From contig NZ_VOBR01000017.1 in assembly GCF_007845675.1 (NCBI RefSeq), positions 62,001-126,000 on the forward strand: 64,000 nt of DNA, written 5' to 3'. The notes under the pieces were generated by a model. It was not told the DNA's origin. It saw only the letters and a program-made list of their open reading frames with translations, and did no database searches. The DNA is from Lentzea tibetensis. GTDB taxonomy: Bacteria > Actinomycetota > Actinomycetes > Mycobacteriales > Pseudonocardiaceae. Below, one piece after another: positions 8,162-62,394 of this stretch. Numbering within the stretch: position 1 is the stretch's first letter; every line of letters begins with the position of its first letter. The translations under genes were made by a program, and so were the position numbers.

Positions 8162-9091
8162 ATGGGCCACGCGGTGCTCGCAGAAGGCCTTCGCAAGAGC
8201 TTCGCCAAGAAACCCGCGCTCGACGGGATCGACCTGGCCGTGCCGGCGGGCACGGTGTGCGGCCTGCTCGGCCCGAACGGCGCGGGCAAGACGACGGCCG
8301 TCCGCATCCTCTCGACGCTCCTCAAACTCGACGGCGGCCGCGCCGAGGTCGCCGGCTTCGACGTCGTCCGCGACGCCGTGCAGGTGCGGCACCGGGTCGG
8401 CCTGAACGGTCAACAGTCGACAGTTGACGATGTCCTCACCGGCCGGGAGAACCTGGTGATGTGGGGCAGGCTCTACCACCTGAGCCGGAAGGTCGCGGAG
8501 CAGCGCGCGGACGAGCTGCTGGCGCAGTTCGGCCTCACCGACGCCGCCGACAAGCGCGCCAAGGCGTACTCCGGCGGCATGCGCAGACGCCTGGACCTGG
8601 CGTCGAGCTTCATCATGGCGCCGCAGGTGATGTTCCTGGACGAGCCGACGACCGGCCTGGACCCGCGCAACCGCGGCGAGGTGTGGCGCGAGGTGAAACG
8701 CCTGGTCGCGGCAGGGACGACGGTCCTGCTCACCACCCAGTACCTCGACGAGGCCGACCAGCTCGCCGACCAGATCGTCGTGCTCGACACCGGCAAGGTC
8801 GTCGCCGACGGCCCGCCCGACCAGCTGAAGTCGAAACTCGGCGGCGACCGGATCGAGGTCGTCGTGCGCGACGCCGACGACCTCCCCACCACCGCCCGCC
8901 TGCTCGGCCCGGCCGCCGAGGTCGATCCCGACAACTACCGCGTCAGCGTCGCCGTCGACGACCGCGTCGCCGCACTCACCCGAGTGACCCGCGCACTCGC
9001 CGACGCCGGCGTCGAGGCCGAGGACATCGCCCTGCGCAGACCCACGCTCGACGAGGTGTTCCTCGCACTCACCGGCCACCGGGCGGCGTGA
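8162..9091 (+). CDS. ABC exporter ATPase, DrrA (daunorubicin-resistance) type
   Basis: A 309-residue ATPase. Walker A is GPNGAGKTT (residues 37-45), the signature YSGGM lies near 136-140, and Walker B VMFLDEPTTGLD starts near 156. The C-terminal extension is typical of DrrA. It should power the permease encoded at 9864. ATG 8162 follows a G-rich site; ATG 8150 abuts the operator and would fit a leaderless transcript. The segment QQSTVDD near residue 84 uses atypical codons that spell the dispersed CAACAGTCGACAGTTGAC motif. Confidence 0.92.
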   Translation: MGHAVLAEGLRKSFAKKPALDGIDLAVPAGTVCGLLGPNGAGKTTAVRILSTLLKLDGGRAEVAGFDVVRDAVQVRHRVGLNGQQSTVDDVLTGRENLVMWGRLYHLSRKVAEQRADELLAQFGLTDAADKRAKAYSGGMRRRLDLASSFIMAPQVMFLDEPTTGLDPRNRGEVWREVKRLVAAGTTVLLTTQYLDEADQLADQIVVLDTGKVVADGPPDQLKSKLGGDRIEVVVRDADDLPTTARLLGPAAEVDPDNYRVSVAVDDRVAALTRVTRALADAGVEAEDIALRRPTLDEVFLALTGHRAA

Positions 9092-9867
9092 TGACCACCC
9101 GCGCACTCGCCGACGACTTCGTCGCCGCACGGGCGACCCGCGAACGGGCCGTTCACGCGCTCCCCCACACCGACGTCGTCGTCGTCGCACCCACACGAGC
9201 CACCCGCGACCTCACGACCCGACGAGTCACAACCGCCGACGACGACGTCGTCGAAGTCGTCGTCGCACAGCCGGCCGACGACTTCGTCGCCGCACGTGAA
9301 CGGGCCGTTCACGCCCACCCTCGCACCGACGACCTCGTCGCACACACATTCGACGGCGCCACCGACGAAGTCGTCGCAGAGCCGGCCGACGACCTTGTCG
9401 CCGCAAGCGAACGGGCCGTTCACGCTCACTCCCGCACCGACGAAGTCGTCGCGCACACATCCGACGGCATCGCCGACGAAGTCGTCGCGAACACGACCGG
9501 CGAGGTCGTCACCGCTACTACCGACGACCTCGTCGCGCGCATCTCAGGCGGTGTCGCCGACGAAGTCGTCGCACACACCGCCGACGACTTCGTCGCCGCA
9601 CGTGAACGGGCCGTTCACGCCCATCCCACACCGACGACCCCGTCGCACACATCCGACGGCATCGCCGACGCAGTCATCGCGAACACGACCGACGACGTCG
9701 TCACCGCTGCCACCGACGACGTCGTCGCACTCGGGCGAGCCGCCCACGACCTGACACCCCACATGCCCACCAACGCCGACGAAGTCGTCGCGCACCCAGC
9801 CGACGACCTCGTCACGACACCCACACGGGTGACCCTCGACCCCACCAGCCTCAAGGCGGCGCCATGA
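9091..9867 (+). CDS. Repeat-built Asp/Val/Ala/Thr-rich ORF inside the exporter operon
   Basis: ATG 9091 overlaps the ATPase stop (TGATGA), and the TGA at 9865 overlaps the permease ATG, so 258 codons sit between coupled genes. The product has no known domain. It is made of variants of ADDFVAARERAVHAH, TDEVVAHTSDGIADEVVA and TTDDVVTA, with no cysteine or tryptophan and almost no lysine. Its first codons repeat the ATPase 3' coding sequence (19 identical bases at 8987-9005 and 9097-9115). An exporter subunit, a decaying spacer or a repeat expansion that happens to stay open are all possible. Confidence 0.5.
   Translation: MTTRALADDFVAARATRERAVHALPHTDVVVVAPTRATRDLTTRRVTTADDDVVEVVVAQPADDFVAARERAVHAHPRTDDLVAHTFDGATDEVVAEPADDLVAASERAVHAHSRTDEVVAHTSDGIADEVVANTTGEVVTATTDDLVARISGGVADEVVAHTADDFVAARERAVHAHPTPTTPSHTSDGIADAVIANTTDDVVTAATDDVVALGRAAHDLTPHMPTNADEVVAHPADDLVTTPTRVTLDPTSLKAAP
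9112..9816. repeat. Array of interspersed palindromic repeats
   Basis: About 17 copies of (A/G)CCGACGAnnTCGTC variants occur at irregular spacing; the AC/CT centre versions and the AAG centre versions are reverse complements, so they can fold on each other. Four copies of a C(G/C)(T/C)GAACGGGCCGTTCACG-like palindrome lie at 9141, 9295, 9407 and 9601. A 44-bp block is perfectly duplicated at 9274-9317 and 9580-9623, and an 80-bp degenerate block recurs at about 9457 and 9648. Confidence 0.9.
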
Positions 9868-53123: not shown

Positions 53124-53789
53124 CTAGGGGTGTTCGGTTGGGTCCCGCAGCGAAAGTCGCGTGAGCTGGTCGGCCTGCCGGGTCGTCTCGGGCAGCCGGT
53201 AGCGGGGCGCGAGGCGCAGGACCTCGGCGCACGCGCGGTCGAGGTCGATCTTGTGGCCGACGGACACGAACACCGGCTTCACGCCGGACTGGGTGCGCAG
53301 CGCGCGGCCGACGACGTCGTCGTCCATCACCAGGTCCGTGTGCGACCCGCGCGCGTCGCCGGGCGGAGCGAAAGAGACCATTGGGCTCTTGGCGACGCCG
53401 ATGCTCGGGATGCCGGTCTCGACACCCAGGTGGCACGCGAGGCCGAAGCGGCGCGGGTGGGCGACGCCCTGACCGTCGCAGACGAGCAGGTCAGGGGTCA
53501 CGGCGAGCTTGCCGAGCGCGGTCATCAGCGACGGCATCTCGCGGAACGCGAACAGGCCGGGCACGTACGGGAAGTCGGTCGTGCCGTGGACGACGACCTC
53601 GTCGAGCGGTTCCAGCGTCGTCGCGTCGAGGACGACGACGACGGCGGCGAGCCGGTCGTCGGCGGCATAGCCGACGTCGAGACCGGCGACGACGCGGACG
53701 TCGAGGTCCGGATCGGTGGTGGTGACCACCAGATACCGGAGCTTCTCCTGGAGCGCGATGGCTTCGTCGACGGTCGTCGGCCAGGTCAT
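53124..53789 (-). CDS. nfi: Endonuclease V
   Basis: A 221-residue protein. VVAGLDVGYAADDRLAAVVVV holds the first catalytic Asp, LLVCDGQGVAHPRRFGLACHLGV the second, and IGVAKSPM plus VKPVFVSVGHKIDL complete the nfi pattern. It nicks DNA near deaminated bases such as inosine. It follows the P450 stop by nine bases, so it may be read through from the peptide/P450 transcript, but it is a housekeeping repair enzyme. Confidence 0.92.
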   Translation of the reverse strand: MTWPTTVDEAIALQEKLRYLVVTTTDPDLDVRVVAGLDVGYAADDRLAAVVVVLDATTLEPLDEVVVHGTTDFPYVPGLFAFREMPSLMTALGKLAVTPDLLVCDGQGVAHPRRFGLACHLGVETGIPSIGVAKSPMVSFAPPGDARGSHTDLVMDDDVVGRALRTQSGVKPVFVSVGHKIDLDRACAEVLRLAPRYRLPETTRQADQLTRLSLRDPTEHP

Positions 53790-53798
53790 GCGGCCAGC

Positions 53799-55031
53799 CT
53801 AGCCACGCGCTTCCAGCCGGAACCGCGCCCCGCGCGCCTGCAGGGCCAGCGCGGGCCGGACCGTCACGTCGCCCGCGGCGTGCAGCCGGAACCGGCGGCA
53901 GATCTCGGACACGGCGACCACGATCTCCGTCGTCGCGACGGCCCCGCCGATGCACGCGCGCGGCCCCAGCCCGAACGGGAAGTACGCGCCGCGCGCGGCG
54001 AGCCCGTCCTCCCAGCGGTCCGGACGGAACTCCGCCGCCCCGGCGAACCAGCGCTCGTCGCGATGGGTCACCCACTGGCACACCGTCACCGTGGTTCCGG
54101 CGGGCACGTGGTGCCCCTGGAACTCCACGTCCCGCGCCGCCTCCCGGCTGGTGATCCACGTCGTCGGGTACAGCCGGAGCACCTCGCGCACGACGCGGTC
54201 GGCGTACGAGGGGTCGGCGGCGACGCGGTCGGCGACGTCCGGATGCCCCGCCAGCAGGTGGCACGCCCAGGTGATCGCGTTCTTGCTCGTCTCGAACCCG
54301 GCGAGCAGCAGCGTCGCCAGCTCGTCCTGAACGTCCGAATCGGACAGTCCCGACCCGCGCAGCACCTCGAGCACGGGCGAGTCCGCCGGTGCGGTGCGCA
54401 TGATGCGGGTCAGCAGCTCGTCGATCTCCCGCAACGACCTGCGCAGCCGCAGACCGCGCGGGGTCGGGAACCACTGCGGCAGCATGATCTGCTGCTCGGA
54501 GAAGTCCATGATCACGGCGACGAGCCTGCCGATGGTGTCGATGTCGGCCTGCCCGATCGCGTCGCCGAACATCAGGCGGGTGATCGTGCGCAGTGTCAGC
54601 ACCGAGAGATCGTGGTCGGGCTCGACCGTCTGACCGCCGCGCCACGAGGCGAACGCACGGTCGGCTTCTTCGCGCGCGACGAGGGCCGCGGCATCGACCA
54701 TGCGACGGGTGAAGGCCGGGCTCAGCCTGCGGCGCTTGGCGTGCCAGTCCTCGCCGTCGCTGTTCATCATCGCGCCGGGGAAACCTTGCTTGCGCGTGTG
54801 CAGCAGGGTTTTGTTCGTCGTCTTGACGAACGCCGAGTCGCGGTCGACCAGCACCCGTTCGATGTCATCCGGGTGTGCCAGCAGAACGTTGTGCGAGCCG
54901 AGCATCACGACATCGCCGTAGGTGCGGACGCATTCGGTCAGGAACTCGAGCGGACTCGCCGAGAAATCGCCGAGATTGCCGATGAACCGATCGCCCGCAG
55001 GTCCGGGCGCGGTGAGAACCCCAGTCGTCAT
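53799..55031 (-). CDS. Cytochrome P450, putative RiPP cross-linking enzyme
   Basis: A 410-residue soluble P450. The I-helix is AGFETSKN (about 244-251), the K-helix ExxR is in VREVLRLYP (about 280), and the haem loop FPFGLGPRACIGG carries Cys360. ATG 55031. Directly upstream is a 27-codon ORF whose product ends in YMYY, so the likely job is oxidative aryl cross-linking of those tyrosines (inference from the cittilin and biarylitide systems). A hairpin separates the two genes. No methyltransferase or protease is next to it. Confidence 0.9.
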   Translation of the reverse strand: MTTGVLTAPGPAGDRFIGNLGDFSASPLEFLTECVRTYGDVVMLGSHNVLLAHPDDIERVLVDRDSAFVKTTNKTLLHTRKQGFPGAMMNSDGEDWHAKRRRLSPAFTRRMVDAAALVAREEADRAFASWRGGQTVEPDHDLSVLTLRTITRLMFGDAIGQADIDTIGRLVAVIMDFSEQQIMLPQWFPTPRGLRLRRSLREIDELLTRIMRTAPADSPVLEVLRGSGLSDSDVQDELATLLLAGFETSKNAITWACHLLAGHPDVADRVAADPSYADRVVREVLRLYPTTWITSREAARDVEFQGHHVPAGTTVTVCQWVTHRDERWFAGAAEFRPDRWEDGLAARGAYFPFGLGPRACIGGAVATTEIVVAVSEICRRFRLHAAGDVTVRPALALQARGARFRLEARG

Positions 55032-55052
55032 ACTGCCCCCCAGCAGGACGGC

Positions 55053-55071
55053 CGGGGGCACGAGGCCCCCG
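55053..55071 (-). terminator. Intercistronic hairpin between precursor and P450
   Basis: CGGGGGC and GCCCCCG are seven-base arms around a five-base loop (ACGAG), between the peptide stop (55085) and P450 start (55031). A partial terminator or stabiliser here would raise peptide mRNA relative to enzyme mRNA, as often seen in RiPP operons. Confidence 0.55.
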
Positions 55072-55084
55072 TCCGCATTGATCA

Positions 55085-55168
55085 TCAGTAGTACATGTAA
55101 GGCGCGGTCACCCGGTCGTTGCGAGCGAAACCGGACCACACAGCAAGCGTCAGAAGCGCCTTGCGCAT
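55085..55168 (-). CDS. 27-residue RiPP precursor peptide with C-terminal YMYY core
   Basis: ATG 55168 is preceded by AAGGAAGG at about nine bases, a good ribosome-binding site. The peptide begins MRKALL, has a basic/hydrophobic leader with one Trp (AVWSGFARNDR) and ends APYMYY. Three aromatic residues in the last four match the YIYY core and 27-residue size that I recall for the cittilin precursor, and a P450 gene follows at 54 bp. Expected product: a cross-linked YMYY tetrapeptide after leader removal. Too short for routine gene calling. Confidence 0.75.
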   Translation of the reverse strand: MRKALLTLAVWSGFARNDRVTAPYMYY

Positions 55169-55293: not shown

Positions 55294-56232
55294 CTAGTGA
55301 TTCCCGACGCTTTCGAAGTGCGCGGCGAGGAGATCGTCGCCGAAGTCGCCGGAGTGCCTGCGCCACACGGTGTGGGCGTGGTTGGCCTCGTTCGCGGTGT
55401 TGTCGTACTCGATCAGCAGCTCGGGTCCCTGGATGCGGTAGTAGTGGCCCTCGCCGCGCCGGGTCGATCCCTCCCACGAGAAGTGCAGGCGCTCCGGGTC
55501 GATCCGCTGGAACTCCTCGTCGGCCAGCTCGTAGGCGAGCCGGTCGAGGTAGAAGCGGACGATGTCGACGAGCAGCTCGCCCGACGACTTGCCGAGCTGC
55601 GCCGGCGTCACGCCCACGGGCTCGAGGTCGCCGACGCGCGGCGAGTTGCCGGTGCGGATGTCGTGGGGCGCGGTGTCGGACACGATCGCCAGCCGCCGCG
55701 CGGTCGGGCCCATGCGGTCCAGCAGCTCGCGGGCCAGTTCCTCCTCCAGCCGCAGCGGTTGCCCGACGACGCGGCCCCGGTACGTCACGCGTGCCGGGTT
55801 CGCGCCGAGGAAGAACGGCGTCGCCGACACCTGGCCCTCGGCGACGACGACGTTCACCGACAGGTGATGTCCCTCGATGCGCCAGCCCCACGGGTCGTCG
55901 CCGGGCGTGCCGAACAGCACGGTCCAGAAGTCGCCGTTGTGCCGGTCGCGGTGGCCGCCCTCGCGGTGGTCGAGCACGTCCTCCAGCGCCATGACCGCCG
56001 CGGCCTGCGCGTAGGCGTGTTGACTGAGAACTGTTGACAGCATGCCGTGCACGGCCTTGCGCTGCGGCCTGCGCAGCTCGCCGAGCACGAGACCGGGCCG
56101 TTCACCGGGCGTGTAGGCCCACCGGTGCCGCAGGTCGTCGTCGGTGATGGCTTTGATCGCTGCCGCGCGCTGGTCTCCGTCGAGCTCGTCGAGGAACCGG
56201 CGCGTGGCAGCGGCGACGTCATGCAGCATCAT
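55294..56232 (-). CDS. DUF3500-family protein
   Basis: A 312-residue protein with DUF3500 features: RWAYTPGERPGLVLGELR, HNGDFWTVLFGTPGDDPWGWRIEGHHLSVNV, and a C-terminal HYYRIQGPELLIEYDN with HTVWRR. The family has no settled function. MLSTVLSQHAY is encoded by a copy of the dispersed GTTGACT/CTGTTGACAG sequence (56019-56040). ATG 56232 overlaps the lyase-like gene stop by four bases, so the two are co-transcribed. Confidence 0.88.
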   Translation of the reverse strand: MMLHDVAAATRRFLDELDGDQRAAAIKAITDDDLRHRWAYTPGERPGLVLGELRRPQRKAVHGMLSTVLSQHAYAQAAAVMALEDVLDHREGGHRDRHNGDFWTVLFGTPGDDPWGWRIEGHHLSVNVVVAEGQVSATPFFLGANPARVTYRGRVVGQPLRLEEELARELLDRMGPTARRLAIVSDTAPHDIRTGNSPRVGDLEPVGVTPAQLGKSSGELLVDIVRFYLDRLAYELADEEFQRIDPERLHFSWEGSTRRGEGHYYRIQGPELLIEYDNTANEANHAHTVWRRHSGDFGDDLLAAHFESVGNH

Positions 56233-61011: not shown

Positions 61012-62394
61012 ATGCACCGAACCAGCGTTCTGCTGGCGGCGAGCGTGCTCAGCGCGGCGTCCATCATCGGAATTCCAGCCCAGGCGGAACCCTCTTGCGC
61101 CAGAACGGTTCCCGTCGCGAACACCGCCGAGCTCCAGAAAGCGCTGACCGGGTCCAAACCCGGTGACTGCGTCGTCGCCGCGGACGGCAACTACTCCGCC
61201 GTCACGGTGACCGCGAAGGAAGTCACGATCAGCGCGCGCAACCTGGGCAAGGCGGTGTTCACGTCGGGTTCGTTGCAGCTCAAGCAATCCGTCGACACCA
61301 CGCTGTCCGGGTTCACCTGGACCAGTGGCGGCAACATCATGTTCACGGACTGCGTCGGTTGCCGCATCACGCGCTGGACGTTCCCGAAGCGGTCCGGCGG
61401 CGGCGAGCTGATCGACTTCGCCGGGTCGAAGAACGACCGCAACCGCATCGACCACTCGGACTTCGGGCCGCGCGGCCAGAAGGGCCGCTACATCTACGTC
61501 CGCGGCGGCAAGCCGACGCTCGCCACCCGGACCCAGATCGACCACAACCACTTCCACGACGTCGGATCAGGCCCGCAGGGCGGCGAGTGCATCGTGCTCG
61601 GCGGCGTCGGCGCGTGGGGCGACTACCAGAACACGTTCAGCGTCGTCGAGCACAACCTGTTCACCCGCTGCGACGGCGACGCCGAGGTCATCTCCACCAA
61701 GGCCTCCAGCAACATCATCCGGCACAACACCGTCCGCGACTCCAAGGGCCAGATCGTGCTGCGCGCGGGCAACAAGAACCAGGTGTACGGCAACGTGATC
61801 CTAGGCTGGAACAAGGAGGGCGCCGGCGGTATCCGCATCCACGAGGAAGATCACCTGATCTACAACAACTACGTGGAGACCAAGGACGCGCCGCTGATCG
61901 TCGGCGGCGGCACCCCGCGCGGACCCGGCTTCAGCCACGCGCAGGTGTTCCGGCCGAAGATCGTCAACAACACGTTCATCGGACGCGACGACGGCGTGCA
62001 CATCGGCCAGTCCGGACGGCTTCCCGTGGTGGACATGACGTTCGCGAACAACGTCGTGCGCGCGCACGCCGGCAAGGTCGTCAACGTCAAGACCACGCCC
62101 ACCCGGCCGATCTACGTGTCCAGCATCCTGCACCCGCAGGGCAGCGCGGCCGCGGGCATCACCGGGCCGGCATTCCTGGTGGCAGACCCCAAGTTCGCGC
62201 GCTCCGGTGAGCTGTTCAAGCTCGCCGACGGCAGCCCGGCGGTCGACAAGGGCTCGACGGCGTACGAGTTCGTCACCGTCGACGTCGACATGCAGGCTCG
62301 TGCGGCGCACGACATCGGCGCGGACGAGCGTTCCACCGCACCGGAGTCGTACCGTCCGCTCACCGCGGCCGACGTCGGACCGCTGGCTCCCTAA
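61012..62394 (+). CDS. Secreted PL6-like polysaccharide lyase
   Basis: A 460-residue protein with signal peptide (LLAASVLSAASIIGIPAQA) and a right-handed parallel beta-helix. NRIDHSDFGPRGQKGRYIYVRGG, TRTQIDHNHFHDVG, HNTVRDSKGQIVLRAGNKN and GGIRIHEEDHLIYNNY match PL6 (alginate or chondroitinase-B-like) lyases, which use Lys and Arg with Ca2+. It should depolymerise a uronate-containing polymer outside the cell. It ends CTAA-convergent with the next gene. Confidence 0.88.
   Translation: MHRTSVLLAASVLSAASIIGIPAQAEPSCARTVPVANTAELQKALTGSKPGDCVVAADGNYSAVTVTAKEVTISARNLGKAVFTSGSLQLKQSVDTTLSGFTWTSGGNIMFTDCVGCRITRWTFPKRSGGGELIDFAGSKNDRNRIDHSDFGPRGQKGRYIYVRGGKPTLATRTQIDHNHFHDVGSGPQGGECIVLGGVGAWGDYQNTFSVVEHNLFTRCDGDAEVISTKASSNIIRHNTVRDSKGQIVLRAGNKNQVYGNVILGWNKEGAGGIRIHEEDHLIYNNYVETKDAPLIVGGGTPRGPGFSHAQVFRPKIVNNTFIGRDDGVHIGQSGRLPVVDMTFANNVVRAHAGKVVNVKTTPTRPIYVSSILHPQGSAAAGITGPAFLVADPKFARSGELFKLADGSPAVDKGSTAYEFVTVDVDMQARAAHDIGADERSTAPESYRPLTAADVGPLAP

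Follow-up and report, generated by a model that had tools for sequence, protein, structure and literature searches.

A two-gene precursor-P450 cassette, probably of cittilin type, with a Tyr-Met-Tyr-Tyr core in Lentzea tibetensis

INTRODUCTION

Does a 27-codon open reading frame (ORF) lying directly upstream of a cytochrome P450 gene in the actinomycete Lentzea tibetensis encode a peptide substrate of that enzyme? The gene pair resides in a 64-kb stretch of the genome (hereafter the window), and an initial annotation had read it as an operon for a ribosomally synthesized and posttranslationally modified peptide (RiPP) of cittilin type. With precursors as short as this, minimal clusters are missed by routine annotation.

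The cittilin precursor CitA ends in YIYY, that is, three Tyr residues and one Ile; a prolyl endopeptidase is involved in cittilin maturation, and RP-66453 represents the unmethylated cittilin scaffold. CitA is described as 27 residues long, and cittilin biosynthesis as a pathway in which such a precursor and one P450 give a biaryl- and aryl-ether-bridged tetrapeptide (PMC8708641), with O-methylation as the last step, which marks methylated cittilin A (PMC11285071). Shandoamide, the syrinamides, and citreamide (SanB, SyrB, and CreB) have been termed cittilin-type P450 RiPPs (PMC12352619), and cittilin-type RiPPs found by genome mining were expressed in Streptomyces albus J1074 (PMC12299652). 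RP-66453 is reported as a Streptomyces product (PMC8397687, PMC12542763) containing isomeric cycloisodityrosine (PMC8397687). The biarylitide precursor is given as five residues (PMC8708641, PMC13417212), the aminopyruvatide P450 ApyO as an enzyme that couples two Tyr residues in a YLY motif (PMC13192836), and macrocyclic peptides with keto acid ends are described together with three metalloenzymes (PMC11117315).

RESULTS

A 27-codon ORF and a P450 gene form a two-gene cassette

The features of the locus are listed in Table 1. The minus-strand ribosome-binding site, the 27-codon ORF with its YMYY core, and the P450 gene that had been noted at first inspection were all confirmed in coordinates and reading frames, and 53 nt separate the stop codon of the precursor from the start of the P450 gene. 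In relatives, the 14 bases 5′ of the precursor start codon are likewise purine-rich. Within the entire window, the precursor ORF is the only frame in which YxYY is followed by a stop codon, and 100 order-2 Markov sequences of equal length yielded a mean of 0.0 such frames.

Table 1. Positions of the cassette, its parts, and its neighbors in the window, together with glycosyltransferase genes at two related loci (prefixed by locus)
Feature	Coordinates	Strand	Remarks
Precursor gene	55168-55085	minus	27 codons plus stop, MRKALLTLAVWSGFARNDRVTAPYMYY; ATG at 55168, stop at 55087-55085
Ribosome-binding site, AAAGGAAGG	55185-55177	minus	8 nt 5′ of the ATG; direct sequence reading
Putative leader, residues 1-23	55168-55100	minus	last residue is Pro23
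Putative core Tyr-Met-Tyr-Tyr, residues 24-27	55099-55088	minus	codons TAC ATG TAC TAC, then TGA
GC-rich hairpin, precursor/P450 spacer	55076-55048	minus	U-tract absent
Cytochrome P450, 410 aa	ATG 55031 to 53799	minus	proposed cross-linking enzyme; Pfam PF00067
DUF3500 gene	55294..56232	minus	outside the cassette, upstream edge
Endonuclease V gene	53124..53789	minus	outside the cassette, downstream edge
Amycolatopsis EryCIII-like glycosyltransferase genes	L045:8220-9251, L040:9522-10637		59% identical

The flanks set the extent of the cassette. The DUF3500 and endonuclease V genes adjoin in 23 of 24 congeners, with 25 to 31 bases between matched residues, and in the window it is the precursor and P450 genes that occupy this junction. 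Since the flanking genes abut elsewhere, the cassette of the window consists of these two genes and nothing else; it holds neither a protease nor an exporter. The exceptional congener (G024, locus L107 on G024:C17), which is the closest by endonuclease V (80%), has the same junction filled with an unrelated secreted-lipase-like ORF (named by eye), which raises the possibility that insertions favor this junction. Gain of the cassette in the window lineage, rather than loss elsewhere, is the simpler reading. Farther along the window, a chondroitinase B-like beta-helix protein is encoded at 61012-62394 (Pfam PF14592, E = 7.1e-36).

The small ORF accompanies a single clade of P450 enzymes

A family-level protein search of 391 genomes (E up to 1e-60) returned three orthologues of the P450 besides that of the window, at 51 to 56% identity, and one same-genome paralogue at 37%; no congener was among the genomes with a P450 match in this search. 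Each of the three orthologues is preceded by a 27-residue ORF, ending with YIYY, YNYY, or YVYY. Two short peptide patterns were then derived from a four-P450 alignment and scanned against the named genomes of 84,980 species, a design by which more distant members will be missed. Fifty-seven stretches matched and 10 loci were returned, six of them close (46 to 54% identity), and the precursor ORF was found in all six: Amycolatopsis antarctica, Amycolatopsis dendrobii, Saccharothrix sp. S26, Streptomyces sp. NBC_00083, Allonocardiopsis opalescens, and Streptomonospora nanhaiensis. Three of these are the same genomes as those of the family-search orthologues. The four distant loci (26 to 28% identity) carry no YxYY-stop across the whole fetched stretch.

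With an E-value ceiling of 1e-95, profile searches gave matches in 8 of 394 class-level genomes (the window's own included), in 5 of 323 Streptomyces genomes, and in 8 of 150 genomes from the family of G1051. After removal of repeats and of three duplicates of named genomes, 21 distinct loci were obtained, comprising the window, the six named loci, and 14 further ones. The cassette is rare, being present in 4 of the 323 Streptomyces genomes, the centre genome not counted. A DNA-level search of 61 relatives detected no orthologue and gave short matches only, the best of 80% over ca. 100 bases. In a plasmid collection, 110 records contain P450s, and all of the 20 that were listed fall below 35% identity.

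At every one of the 21 loci, an upstream ORF carries Tyr24, Tyr26, and Tyr27, and at 20 of them it is exactly 27 codons long before the stop. The initial annotation had named loss of the small ORF beside orthologous P450s as an observation that would speak against a precursor; the ORF proved to be conserved throughout, versus 0 of 38 other P450 loci with a YxYY-stop on either strand in flanks of up to 1.5 kb. These control loci are 29 distant ones, namely, the matches of a phylum search of 396 genomes for which a locus was returned, and nine same-genome paralogues. We examined small ORFs upstream of the P450 genes of L078 (sister branch) and L088 (a paralogue) as candidate precursors and rejected them, as they show no ribosome-binding site by the pattern used and no aromatic end.

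In a maximum-likelihood tree of 57 P450s, the 20 full-length members fall on one branch (support of 100/100, stem of 0.6). The tree excludes L134 and the distant L074, for which the script detected no heme motif in the main frame. The phylum search also returned 12 matches in 10 genomes that pass E 1e-95, at 320 to 400 bits; those that were fetched lie on other branches of the tree and lack the precursor ORF. P450s of the clade score at least 550 bits, except for L134, which scores 410 bits over part of the profile. Since outsiders also pass the E value, the boundary of the family was set by tree topology together with the score gap below 550 bits. At L134 (G1249:C6), the precursor is intact (YSYY) and the heme motif of the P450 lies in a frame different from that of the N-terminal part, indicative of either a frameshift or a sequencing error.

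The clade divides into two halves, each with support of 100/99. One contains Pseudonocardiaceae and Streptomyces (nine rows) and has leaders of the MR[KR][ALM] type; the other (11 rows) contains Streptomonospora, Allonocardiopsis, and further genomes from their family and has leaders of the [KR][KR]xxYR type. The leader type therefore tracks the P450 subclade; that is, leader and enzyme covary.

The precursor is conserved over its length and evolves as coding DNA

Besides the three Tyr residues, Ala9 is invariant at the 21 loci, whereas Arg19, Leu20, Thr21, and Pro23 are each found in 20 of them, residue 23 being Ala in the remaining one. Core residue 25 is the variable one (Ile in nine, Val in four, Ser in three, Met in two, Asn in two, and Thr in one). 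Met as second core residue, together with the lack of an adjacent methyltransferase, had been taken to mark a new variant; the Met stands, but YMYY is not unique to the window, as a Streptomyces genome (G1339, locus L133) encodes it as well, in the precursor MRKLILTGALFARLTRKDRLTAPYMYY. At L137 (G1541:C1), no stop follows YTYY and the frame runs eight codons further, which would mean either that the gene has decayed or that its precursor carries a follower.

Third-position drift like that of noncoding DNA had also been put forward as a sign against the precursor. The four Pseudonocardiaceae precursors form six pairs, across which 36, 16, and 73 differences were counted at codon positions 1, 2, and 3, respectively, a bias as in coding DNA. 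One Streptomyces precursor pair gave a pS of 0.28 and a pN of 0.00. The pN/pS value pooled across all precursor pairs (0.70) is uninformative because it is saturated, and the signal comes from the close pairs. These substitution patterns show that the precursor ORF evolves like coding DNA.

The neighboring enzyme is an intact P450 of unassigned reaction

The P450 frame of the window matches Pfam PF00067 with an E value of 1.8e-56. The motifs FGLGPRACIG, EVLR, and GFETS are all present, with the heme and ExxR motifs intact. Its best NCBIfam match is the ApyO model (NF050147) at 147.7 bits, yet the curated cut-off of this model is 525 bits. The predicted structure (mean pLDDT of 78.1) was assigned by Foldseek to the P450 fold, with CYP184A1 as the nearest solved structure at 28% identity; at the level of prediction, these results confirm the P450 fold only and are silent on peptide cross-linking. 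Since the ApyO match is far under its cut-off and CYP184A1 is only 28% identical, the reaction cannot be named from sequence alone. The ApyO P450 model is matched 69 times in the host genome (G000), which points to a rich set of P450s.

A bicyclic tetrapeptide is the favored product

The conservation of the ORF at all 21 loci and its tie to one P450 clade support the reading of the pair as a precursor-P450 operon of cittilin type. We propose that the ribosome makes the 27-residue peptide and that the P450 would recognize its 23-residue leader, oxidize the C-terminal Tyr-Met-Tyr-Tyr, and couple Tyr side chains. By analogy with the cittilins, the precursor is very probably cross-linked by the adjacent P450, whichever bonds are made. 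The number and positions of the bonds are carried over from cittilin: the likeliest would be a C-C biaryl bond between Tyr1 and Tyr3 of the core and an aryl ether between Tyr3 and Tyr4, with loss of four hydrogens. A host protease would then cut after Pro23 and release a bicyclic tetrapeptide. Position −1 is occupied by Pro in 20 of the 21 precursors, and the host genome has one match over cut-off to the S9 N-terminal domain (prolyl oligopeptidase type; 246.9 bits), on another contig. The predicted [M+H]+ values are 635.2170 for the bicycle, 637.2327 for a product with a single cross-link, 639.2483 for the linear peptide, and 651.2119 for the sulfoxide of the bicycle; methylation by the cassette is not expected.

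The bicyclic form itself is likely, if less firmly so than cross-linking as such. In a variant of this same reading, the peptide would receive a single cross-link, be it a Tyr-x-Tyr ring or an ether, and one Tyr would stay unbound. ApyO, the best NCBIfam match, is described as forming one C-C bond in its YLY motif (PMC13192836), and engineered P450Blt is reported to yield Tyr-x-Tyr cross-links (PMC10929621). A single Tyr-x-Tyr bond, however, would leave the C-terminal Tyr superfluous, yet this residue, like the other two, is invariant across the clade, and the precursor length fits cittilin (27 aa) rather than the biarylitides (5 aa). Because all three Tyr residues are invariant, two bonds are likelier than one by analogy with cittilin, and we regard the single cross-link as unlikely.

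Far less probable is a regulatory role, in which the small ORF would be a leader peptide whose Tyr codons stall the ribosome while the hairpin attenuates transcription of the P450 gene. The Tyr-rich end of the ORF, followed by a hairpin ahead of the P450 gene, fits such a device. The GC hairpin described in the initial annotation is indeed present, but in the window it folds no more strongly than shuffled sequences (z = −0.46), and it has no U-tract. In the named relatives, the spacer gave z values of −2.43, −3.22, −2.56, and −2.86 in four, −0.09 in one, and −2.13 in the sixth, for which the initial 140 nt were folded. Furthermore, conservation extends over the whole peptide, including Ala9, Arg19, Leu20, Thr21, and Pro23, and the P450 gene is no Tyr biosynthesis gene. 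In the precursor-P450 operon that we favor, the hairpin could control how much precursor is made relative to enzyme.

That the ORF is a chance or decayed frame beside an ordinary biosynthetic P450, as the plentiful P450 genes of the host might suggest, has a next to negligible probability against its presence at every clade locus and at none of the controls, its third-position bias, and the single fully supported P450 clade.

Neighboring genes vary by lineage, and a methyltransferase is usually absent

When every ORF called at the 21 loci was clustered, the P450 proved to be the sole gene family shared by all loci; in this survey, simple composition-script calls miss genes, as exemplified by the glycosyltransferase of L040. 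A Pfam scan detected no CitC-like methyltransferase in the cassette or in eight nearby genes of the window, bearing out the earlier remark that no methyltransferase is adjacent. For other methyltransferase families, the Pfam scan covered 23 neighboring genes, drawn from the window and from the six named loci. One methyltransferase family recurs at 4 of the 21 loci (L044, L147, L148, and L149), all from one genus, that of S. nanhaiensis. It was identified by Pfam in L044 (at 8546-9337) and by BLAST clustering in the other three, and it lies on the opposite strand, 63 to 880 bases past the P450 gene. With this family absent from 17 of the 21 loci, lack of an adjacent methyltransferase looks to be the usual state for the clade. 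PMC8708641 gives such clusters outside myxobacteria as strictly without a methyltransferase; the four convergent methyltransferase loci are possibly an exception to this statement, if the gene belongs to the pathway.

Other additions are likewise confined to lineages. Genes for oligopeptide ABC transporters flank the pair on both sides at four of the six Streptomyces loci (L042, L142, L143, and L146); Pfam support for them comes from L042, and in L146 the downstream set does not begin until ca. 6 kb away. A gene for an EryCIII-like glycosyltransferase follows the P450 gene in A. dendrobii, and a homologue (59% identity over 354 residues) is found in A. antarctica after an MFS transporter-like ORF (assigned by eye). 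The Amycolatopsis glycosyltransferases hint at glycosylated products of cittilin type.

DISCUSSION

The cassette is real and is best placed as a further member of a known family rather than as a new type of system, CitA and CitB being compared by description. This placement follows from the precursor length (exactly 27 residues at 20 of 21 loci) and the C-terminal Tyr-x-Tyr-Tyr core (all 21), together with the absence of the recurring methyltransferase from most loci. The cittilin system of Myxococcus xanthus (CitA/CitB/CitC) likewise pairs a 27-residue precursor with one P450, and the P450 gene adjacent to the precursor in the window is likened to CitB by description alone. It differs from the window in having Ile where the window core has Met, in its CitC methyltransferase, of which the cassette has no counterpart, and in its host, which in the present case is an actinobacterium. 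RP-66453 and the window share an actinomycete origin, and the window core is set apart by its Met. Shandoamide, the syrinamides, and citreamide are likened to the clade by description, and they may be identical with some of its members. The biarylitides (BytA/BytO) also derive from tiny P450 RiPP clusters; they couple Tyr and another aromatic residue, and their precursor is a pentapeptide, whereas that of the window has 27 residues and ends with YMYY. None of the literature matches listed contained cittilin-family wording or a YIYY/YxYY motif, in a collection whose coverage leaves out most of the relevant journals.

The lineage-specific additions, i.e., the glycosyltransferases of the two Amycolatopsis species, the methyltransferase of the S. 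nanhaiensis genus, and the oligopeptide ABC transporters at four of six Streptomyces loci, allow a broader and frankly speculative picture. The clade might be a natural scaffold library in which three Tyr residues give a rigid bicycle, residue 2 is swapped (Ile, Val, Ser, Met, Asn, or Thr), and tailoring and transport are added by lineage, the products being imported or exported for signaling or metal binding; the window would then be a Met-bearing member.

According to PMC8708641 and PMC13417212, neither cittilins nor biarylitides have a known biological role, and the transporter neighbors of the Streptomyces loci are one testable lead to it. As a two-gene cassette with a natural Met core, the L. 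tibetensis locus offers a simple test of the tolerance of cittilin-type P450s at core position 2, and the core Met provides a handle for chemical labeling.
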